A stretch of DNA of 47,642 bases from an uncultured Woeseiaceae bacterium (GTDB taxonomy: Bacteria; Pseudomonadota; Gammaproteobacteria; Steroidobacterales; Woeseiaceae). Of the stretch, positions 1-4,725 are shown piece by piece. The stretch lies in NCBI GenBank assembly GCA_947259985.1, contig CAMYOJ010000011.1:84262-131903 (forward strand). Direction: 5' to 3'. Numbering within the stretch: the stretch's first letter is position 1; every line of letters starts with the position of its first letter. Position numbers and translations under genes: made by a program. Below the pieces are notes generated by a model. It did no database searches and was not told the origin of the DNA. It saw only the letters and a program-made list of their open reading frames with translations.

Positions 1-77
1 TAGCCGTCGGCCATCGCCGCGCAACAAAAAACGAGCAACACGCTGCTCATTAGCCTGGAAATTACTCGAATCTTCAT
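1..77 (-). CDS. Secreted protein, N-terminus only (cut by window edge)
   Basis: An ATG at 77-75 on the minus strand opens a frame that runs off the left edge after 25 codons. The visible peptide starts MKIRVISRLMSSVLL and ends near AAMADG: a basic start, a hydrophobic core and an AMA-D cleavage site, which is a typical Sec signal peptide. A perfect Shine-Dalgarno AAGGAGGT (90-83) lies 5 bases before the ATG. A cyclic-di-GMP riboswitch lies directly upstream, so the product is probably an exported protein tied to surface attachment or motility choice. The mature part is outside the window, so no family is assigned. DUF3108 proteins often follow purN, but nothing here supports that identity. 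Confidence 0.75.
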   Translation of the reverse strand, partial: MKIRVISRLMSSVLLVFCCAAMADG

Positions 78-103
78 GCTCGACCTCCTTGCTGCAACAC
101 TTT

Positions 104-212
104 GGGCAGCCCGGCGGTCTTGGGGTCCTTCGAGGCGTGGCGGCAGGCGTCGCGGAGGAAGCGAGGACCCGTGGCTTTGCGTCTCCAGCTTTGGCTGAAT
201 TTGCCTTTCTCA
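104..212 (-). promoter_or_regulatory. Cyclic-di-GMP-I (GEMM-I) riboswitch
   Basis: Read on the minus strand, the segment has the conserved core of class I c-di-GMP aptamers in order. AGGCAAA (near 206-200) comes first. A 6-bp stem UUCAGC/GCUGGA closed by a CAAA loop follows, then GACGCAAAGCCACGGG. The second stem, GGGUCCU/AGGACCC, has a long apical extension. Last comes a 3' element CCCAAGACC then GCCGGGCUGCC, which looks like the tetraloop receptor plus closing strand. The aptamer ends about 14 bases before the Shine-Dalgarno of the secreted-protein gene. No U-tract terminator is seen, so control is probably at translation or through an unseen alternative fold. The 5' limit is approximate; a small hairpin CAAGC/GCUUG at 224-211 may belong to it. 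Confidence 0.9.
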
Positions 213-299
213 AGCGTTAGCTTGCGCTCTGAATAGACAGGCCGTCAATTCTGGGATGTACCTAAATCGAAAGGCGACTTCGCTGACATCCACGGGCCT

Positions 300-3658: not shown

Positions 3659-4725
3659 ACGTGAAGACCGATCTCCGTATTAACTGGCTCATCGCTGTCG
3701 TCCTTACGGGCTGGCTGTTCTACCTGCTGGCGCCCGTACTGACGCCTTTCGTTGCGGCCGCGCTTCTCGCCTATCTTGGTGACCCGCTTGCCGATCGGCT
3801 GCAGAAGCTCAGGTTGCCGCGTTCGCTCGCTGTCCTCACCGTGTTTATTCTGACGTTTCTCGTGCTGGGTTTGCTGGTGCTGCTCGTCGGGCCCCTGATC
3901 AAGAGCCAGGTCGGGGCACTGTTCAAAGCGCTACCGGATATCGCCAGGCAAGTGGAGCAGGTGTGGCTGCCGACGGTCATGCAGTGGGTCGGCGCCGAGG
4001 CCGGGGAAAACGTCGGAATCGGCGCATTTCTCGCGAACTACGGCGACATGTTCGGCAGCTGGAGCGGCAAGGTCCTGATGTCGGTCAGTAAGTCCGGCGG
4101 TGCGCTGGCTGCTGCCGTCCTGAGCCTGTTCCTGATCCCGATTCTGACGTTCTACCTGCTGCGCGACTGGGACTCCCTCGTGGCGCATCTGGGGGCGCTC
4201 GTGCCGGAAAGCCAGCGCGAAACCGTGTTCGAGCTCGCGCGAGATACCGACGATGTGCTGGGTGCATTCCTGCGTGGTCAGATCCTCGTCATGGCAGCGC
4301 TGGCGATCCTCTACACGCTGGGGCTCAGCCTCGTCGGCGTCGAATACGCCGTTGCCATCGGGGTGGTCTCGGGCCTGGTCAGTTTTGTGCCCTACCTCGG
4401 CCTGGTGTTCGGTATCACGCTCGCCGGATTGACCGTCGCACTCGAACCCGAGCCACTATGGCAACTCGTCGGAGTGGCCGCGACGTTTTCCGTCGCACAG
4501 GTCATAGAGGGTTCGGTTCTGACGCCGAAGCTGGTTGGTGATCGTATCGGGCTGCATCCGGTCATCGTTATTTTCGCGGTGGCTGCCGGCGGCCAGTTGT
4601 TCGGTTTCTTCGGCATACTCCTGGCGCTGCCGGCGGCGGCCGTATTGTCGGTGCTGGTGCGTTTCGCGTATGACCGCTATTTGAAAGAACATCCCGATGC
4701 GTTGAAAATCATCGAGCCCGAATGA
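3655..4725 (+). CDS. perM: PerM/AI-2E transporter family membrane protein
   Basis: A 356-residue inner-membrane protein of the AI-2E exporter/PerM superfamily. It has a paired hydrophobic N-terminus (INWLIAVVLTGWLFYLLAPVLTPFVAA), a soluble middle rich in amphipathic helices, and a C-terminal cluster of helices with the family pattern FVPYLGLVFG and EGSVLTPKLVGDRIGLHP. The true substrate of PerM proteins is unsettled. ATG 3655 overlaps the preceding stop (ATGA); a GTG at 3628 is rejected because it adds an unrelated basic leader. Its place before hda matches E. coli and Pseudomonas. Confidence 0.9.
   Translation: MNVKTDLRINWLIAVVLTGWLFYLLAPVLTPFVAAALLAYLGDPLADRLQKLRLPRSLAVLTVFILTFLVLGLLVLLVGPLIKSQVGALFKALPDIARQVEQVWLPTVMQWVGAEAGENVGIGAFLANYGDMFGSWSGKVLMSVSKSGGALAAAVLSLFLIPILTFYLLRDWDSLVAHLGALVPESQRETVFELARDTDDVLGAFLRGQILVMAALAILYTLGLSLVGVEYAVAIGVVSGLVSFVPYLGLVFGITLAGLTVALEPEPLWQLVGVAATFSVAQVIEGSVLTPKLVGDRIGLHPVIVIFAVAAGGQLFGFFGILLALPAAAVLSVLVRFAYDRYLKEHPDALKIIEPE

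Follow-up and report, generated by a model that had tools for sequence, protein, structure and literature searches.

A predicted c-di-GMP-I riboswitch with a long, conserved P2 extension upstream of a gene for a likely exported protein in a Woeseiaceae bacterium

In the available portion of PMC11218506, c-di-GMP-I riboswitches are divided into a type I, which combines a GNRA loop with its receptor, and a type II, which has a GYRA loop and lacks the receptor. The ligand contacts of the Vc2 riboswitch are given as G20, A47 and C92 (PMC4744006, in part). The pilM cGAMP riboswitch of Geobacter is presented in the accessible sections of PMC9262584 as a transcriptional ON switch whose ligand prevents a terminator and in which position 20 guides selectivity; those sections mention no P2 extension for it.

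The locus described here lies in a window of 47,642 nucleotides, the whole stretch of DNA that was analysed (contig CAMYOJ010000011.1, positions 84,262 to 131,903, from an uncultured Woeseiaceae bacterium). The single riboswitch found by an Rfam scan of the whole window is the minus-strand element at 101-214, which we predict to be a c-di-GMP-I riboswitch aptamer (Table 1). An initial annotation had proposed a c-di-GMP-I riboswitch on this strand, and a covariance search bears it out, since RF01051 matches with 58.5 bits against a gathering cut-off of 35. At the same place, within one base, RF03167 (c-di-GMP-I-GGC) scores 59.4 bits (E 1.3e-11, model positions 1-80 of 80), a marginal pass of its cut-off of 59. 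The sequence pattern used in that annotation did locate the aptamer but passed over its unusual part: the two P2 strands are separated by 46 nt (120-165) that the Rfam alignment treats mostly as an insert. RF01051 matches number five in total in the source genome, which is 82% complete. The Rfam alignment places G20 at window position 205, A47 at 178 and C92 at 106, that is, at columns 10, 37 and 115 of our alignment A2, which we take to correspond to the Vc2 numbering. The window copy thus carries all three contact residues. Among the 97 aligned copies, A47 is kept in 97, G20 in 93 and C92 in 95, and the P1b and P2 helices are paired in 94.5% and 97.2% of cells, respectively.

Table 1. Features of the riboswitch locus, in window coordinates
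Feature	Position	Strand	Basis
c-di-GMP-I riboswitch aptamer (predicted), long-P2 subclass	101..214	-	RF03167 59.4 bits and RF01051 58.5 bits, each over cut-off
P1b hairpin of 6 bp; loop 190-193 = CAAA	184..199	-	Rfam alignment; A2 columns 16-31, both-sided changes in 6/6 pairs
P2 5′ strand, partner of 108-119	166..176	-	Rfam alignment; helix 4, 97.2% of cells paired
P2 3′ strand	108..119	-	Rfam alignment; ligand-free fold pairs 106-119 with 82-95, over the Shine-Dalgarno
Distal hairpin of the P2 extension (register A; 148-159 pairs with 126-137)	126..159	-	86.5% of cells paired, both-sided changes in 6/10 pairs
Competing register B (proposed), GGGUCCUCG (162-170) with CGAAGGACCC (123-132)	123..170	-	MFE of window 60-214; 95.6% of cells complementary, no double changes
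Promoter box GTACATCCCAGAATTGAC; 244-248 = TTGAC, likely -35	244..261	-	Exact match; like boxes before 87/123 long copies
Shine-Dalgarno GGAGG	84..88	-	Read from sequence
Start of likely exported-protein gene (MKIRVISRLMSSVLLVFCCAAMADG...)	1..77	-	Runs on left of window; rest within L006:13769-14248 (-) past 3-N gap

When the element is set against its nearest described relatives, it belongs to a known riboswitch class, and what is new is the P2 extension, the loop and the coupling to a promoter. With RF01051 (GEMM-I) it shares the core, the P1b and P2 helices, the three contact residues, the location in a 5′ leader and a score above the cut-off. It differs in its length of 114 nt, compared with 83-89 nt for short copies, in a conserved P2 extension that is left as an insert, and in a CAAA loop that replaces GNRA. 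The CUAAG-type receptor gives way to CUCGCU/CCCAA, so that the type I combination is absent, although GNRA plus receptor defines type I only and is not demanded of every c-di-GMP-I member. RF03167 yields the best Rfam score for the window copy, whereas position 47 is G in its consensus (GACGCGAA) and A in the window. Like type II, as far as the text of PMC11218506 describes it, the element departs from the GNRA-receptor pair, but its loop is NAAA rather than GYRA and its P2 is extended and conserved. An NAAA loop with an extended P2 fits neither type. The fold class, and the ON logic predicted below for the Gemmatimonadetes copy L116, are shared with the pilM riboswitch, whereas the pilM ligand differs and the platform in our window is predicted to be translational.

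The window copy is a member of a long-P2 subclass whose extension is conserved across the 97 aligned copies. When we took the aptamer helices together with the ten-pair distal hairpin of the extension, 92.1% of 2865 cells were paired, compared with 24.7-42.1% in slid controls, and 17 of the 30 pairs showed both-sided changes. For the distal hairpin alone, 86.5% of cells are paired and six of its ten pairs have both-sided changes, several of them in just one or two sequences. Pair 66-86 of the alignment passes from G-C to C-G in four sequences, and pair 68-84 has changed on both sides in 26, yet these make up a lineage-like second type, and the shuffle controls take no account of how closely the sequences are related. 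At 67-85, 74 of 86 sequences lack a pair and mostly have A.C instead. We also observed that pair 11-36 is C-G instead of G-C in eight of the 97 copies, together with GCCAAA...GACGGAAAG (L099, L121, L139, L147, L151, L162, L249 and others).

Two further long relatives of the window copy occur in its own genome, one of them cut by a contig end. A blastn search with the window copy gave a match at E ≤ 0.001 in 47 of 73 genomes of the genus, where at most 12 candidates per genome were scored and the weakest matches may be plain cores; identity reached 93% over 104 bases. With up to three mismatches allowed, a 26-base pattern was present in three of 369 genomes drawn from the class, namely the source genome, G094 (same genus) and G106 (another family), and it matched 16 times in G094. 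Exact matches in named genomes came to 95 stretches. The 80 listed with titles carry the labels Woeseiaceae (31), Gammaproteobacteria (24), Proteobacteria (6), Chromatiales (6), Gemmatimonadetes (4), Thermoanaerobaculia (3), Lysobacterales (1) and others (5). In the four Gemmatimonadetes copies the aptamer core differs (GGGGGCACAAAGCC) and the extension is nearly the same. A Woeseiaceae-type box and riboswitch also stand under the labels Rubricoccaceae, Rubripirellula and Acidimicrobiaceae (L124, L164 and L167), which suggests that these records are mis-binned contigs. In L122, two long copies (3803-3828, minus, and 4014-4039, plus) lie back to back on opposite strands, about 200 nt apart. A truncated copy, L312 (G030:C7:149175-149236), has kept its 5′ half (CGATTCTCGCTTCCTC) but not the usual 3′ half, and the UUCCU in it is able to pair with the SD-like AGGAA of its own gene.

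The aptamer ends at 101 and the Shine-Dalgarno (SD) follows 12 bases on, before an ATG at 77-75, so the element does stand, as first annotated, shortly before the SD of a gene with a signal-peptide-like start. This gene is cut by a 3-N gap in the assembly just beyond the left edge of the window (L006 near 14260), and its true length and frame are therefore uncertain. Reading the contig on to the left, as the annotation had proposed for identifying the protein, gave about 160 residues past the gap, which with the signal-peptide piece are what is known of the product; no Pfam family was found in the residues past the gap. The description of the target as uncharacterised and likely exported agrees with these findings. 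The annotation saw in it a possible new exported effector; the gene is one of many with signal-peptide-like products behind such copies: by a crude criterion, 86 of 104 long-copy targets have such an N-terminus, compared with 151 of 365 control ORFs from the same loci. No Pfam family occurs in more than four of the 83 targets scanned and no NCBIfam family in more than three. The genes downstream of the Gemmatimonadetes copies L116, L130, L135 and L171, and of L179, which has the same core, share nearly the same N-terminal sequence and likely belong to DUF6976 (PF22396), which was matched by L135, the only one of the five that was scanned.

A 20-base box ending in TTGAC, with at most five mismatches, precedes 87 of 123 long copies and none of 36 short copies or of the shuffled leaders. 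In 70 of these 87 its end lies 35-38 nt before GGCAAA, and an AnAAT-like -10 is found 18 nt past TTGAC in the 36 copies of the commonest spacing. The window box is an 18-base exact match (244-261) followed by a poor -10, and a sigma-70 scan found no promoter. The place beside purN, which the initial annotation thought unusual, probably has no meaning, since a promoter box of its own precedes the unit and no purN match was obtained in L125, a record of 7,835 bases around the related locus. Boxes without a riboswitch match stand before predicted exported proteins or lipoproteins at G000:C56:5580, C6:65003 and C15:96604 (L337, L339 and L340), and the box may for this reason define a wider regulon. 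One further box site of the same genome seems to lie inside a gene.

What might such an element do? For this aptamer with its long conserved P2 extension we tentatively predict that c-di-GMP switches on translation of the likely exported protein, likely by release of the SD; we would put this somewhat short of an even chance. In the ligand-free minimum free energy (MFE) fold of window 60-214 (minus strand), register B is present, P2 is broken and 106-119 pairs with 82-95 over the SD. The computed probability that the SD is paired is 0.67 both in the free fold and in register B, and it falls to 0.19 when the aptamer is enforced. The equivalent 3′ strand of the Gemmatimonadetes copy L116 folds into a strong hairpin (z -4.5) with U5 behind it, which looks terminator-like and which aptamer formation would be predicted to prevent, likewise an ON response. 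The drop from 0.67 to 0.19 in the window and the hairpin of L116 thus both point to ON. Among 80 leaders with the aptamer enforced, 50 lost more than 0.05 of their SD pairing and eight gained. Over 66 near copies the values were 0.71 free, 0.51 with the aptamer and 0.59 in register B; in 29 of them the aptamer value was lower than that of B by a margin above 0.1, and in 12 it was higher by as much. The SD effect was nearly the same at unrelated gene starts (B minus A 0.077 vs 0.011, p = 0.05) and swapped downstreams gave no difference, so that the modelled family-wide effect appears modest, barely different from that of unrelated gene starts. A second copy of the same genome, L004, whose start is about 120 nt off, showed no SD effect (0.76 free, 0.74 bound).

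How the SD would be released can be stated as a proposal. Without ligand, the extension would pair in register B (GGGUCCUCG with CGAAGGACCC) and rob P2 of its 5′ strand; the freed P2 3′ strand, GACCGCCGGGCUGC, would then pair with GCAGC..GG.GGUC and hide the SD. With c-di-GMP, P2 would re-form while AGGA shifts from the first to the second UCCU copy, and the restored P2 would free the SD and turn translation on. AGGA is indeed able to pair with either UCCU, at A2 columns 48-51 (register B) or 56-59 (the aptamer-compatible distal helix). Folding models make ON the best reading for the window, and the slide switch through register B stays a proposal. None of the nine register B pairs shows both-sided changes, shuffles do equally well, and the window leader folds no better than its shuffles (z -0.02). 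In favour of the proposal, the energy of register B is below that of the aptamer register in 67 of 97 copies. The enforced aptamer lies on average 8.3 kcal/mol above enforced B (in the window 20 kcal/mol, -29.3 vs -49.3), and the energies ignore tertiary contacts, ligand and co-transcriptional folding. This gap would be large for a ligand to pay at equilibrium, but it is inflated by the forcing of every pair. Folding the aptamer stretch alone put the free MFE within 0.5 kcal/mol of B in 19 of 97 copies and never that close to A, which indicates that most copies prefer some other fold.

The extension could instead serve mainly as a new docking partner, with the CUCGCU/CCCAA internal loop and distal helix replacing the tetraloop receptor and taking up the NAAA loop, so that it would tune the aptamer and have no role in switching. 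We consider this possible, though with less confidence than the ON reading. The CAAA loop that the initial annotation had singled out as a departure from GNRA turns out to be typical of the long-P2 subclass: across three genomes, P1b is closed by GNRA in 12 of 13 short copies, whereas among 22 long copies 3 have it (Fisher 6e-6). In a wider, score-ranked sample the counts are 41 of 115 and 36 of 36, the short set being 39 'other' copies minus three diverged long ones, which also have GNRA. Most short copies of that sample have receptor-like CUAAG or CUACG strands before CCUAYGAC, where long copies have CUCGCU/CCCAA. However, among long copies the class of the P1b loop does not follow changes in the internal loop (29 of 84 copies with an intact and 6 of 13 with an altered internal loop have GNRA, p = 0.54), so that docking into it is no more than possible. 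The conserved distal strands would also be left unexplained.

That the element is an OFF switch or uses another platform, with the UUCCUCC strand as an anti-SD or ligand binding hiding the SD, seems to us improbable. Vc2 itself is called a translational OFF switch in the accessible text of PMC9262584, and UUCCUCC is complementary to GGAGG, holding more than 0.3 of SD pairing in 20 of 102 leaders. It is also the largest single SD partner in the free state over the 80 leaders (0.197, followed by the spacer with 0.182 and the P2 3′ strand with 0.165). Yet it is the P2 3′ strand and not UUCCUCC that covers the SD in the fold of the window leader, the enforced aptamer far more often lowers SD pairing than raises it, and the terminator-like hairpin of L116 would imply ON.

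It is very unlikely that the many copies reflect a mobile repeat with a riboswitch in it by chance: the 16 pattern matches in one genome, copies before unrelated genes and identity of up to 93% to the window copy would suit such a repeat, but the leaders inspected resemble one another in box, -10, aptamer and extension and differ in their spacers, the box mostly keeps its 35-38 nt spacing, and we found no phage match and a single plasmid match of 39 bases.

Least probable of all is a ligand other than c-di-GMP, as in a c-di-GMP-I-GGC-type or cGAMP-type variant, for which the slightly higher RF03167 score and the A at position 20 in 4 of 97 relatives could speak, but against which stand the Vc2 contacts G20, A47 and C92 in the window (PMC4744006, in part) and an A at position 47 in every copy where the RF03167 consensus has G. 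The name GGC appears to refer to positions 20, 47 and 92, with position 47 defining, and G is absent there from the window and all 97 copies. The cGAMP-type GEMM-I riboswitches have A at position 20, where the window has G. An A at position 20 was observed in L085, L111 (the same as L302 by sequence), L142 and L151, and outside the alignment in L309; these copies may have another ligand preference.

Taken as a whole, we regard as doubtful the fuller proposal of a slide switch in P2 whose CGAAGGA 3′ strand pairs with either UCCU copy, which serves translational outputs in Woeseiaceae and terminator outputs in Gemmatimonadetes, and which with its own promoter box makes a portable c-di-GMP ON cassette for a large exported-protein regulon. 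Part of what is conserved in these RNAs is missing from the Rfam models that we used. If the proposal is true, the RNAs would form a subclass of c-di-GMP riboswitches in which the competing strand is part of the aptamer stem and does not follow it downstream, and many uncharacterised exported proteins of Woeseiaceae-type bacteria would belong to one c-di-GMP regulon.
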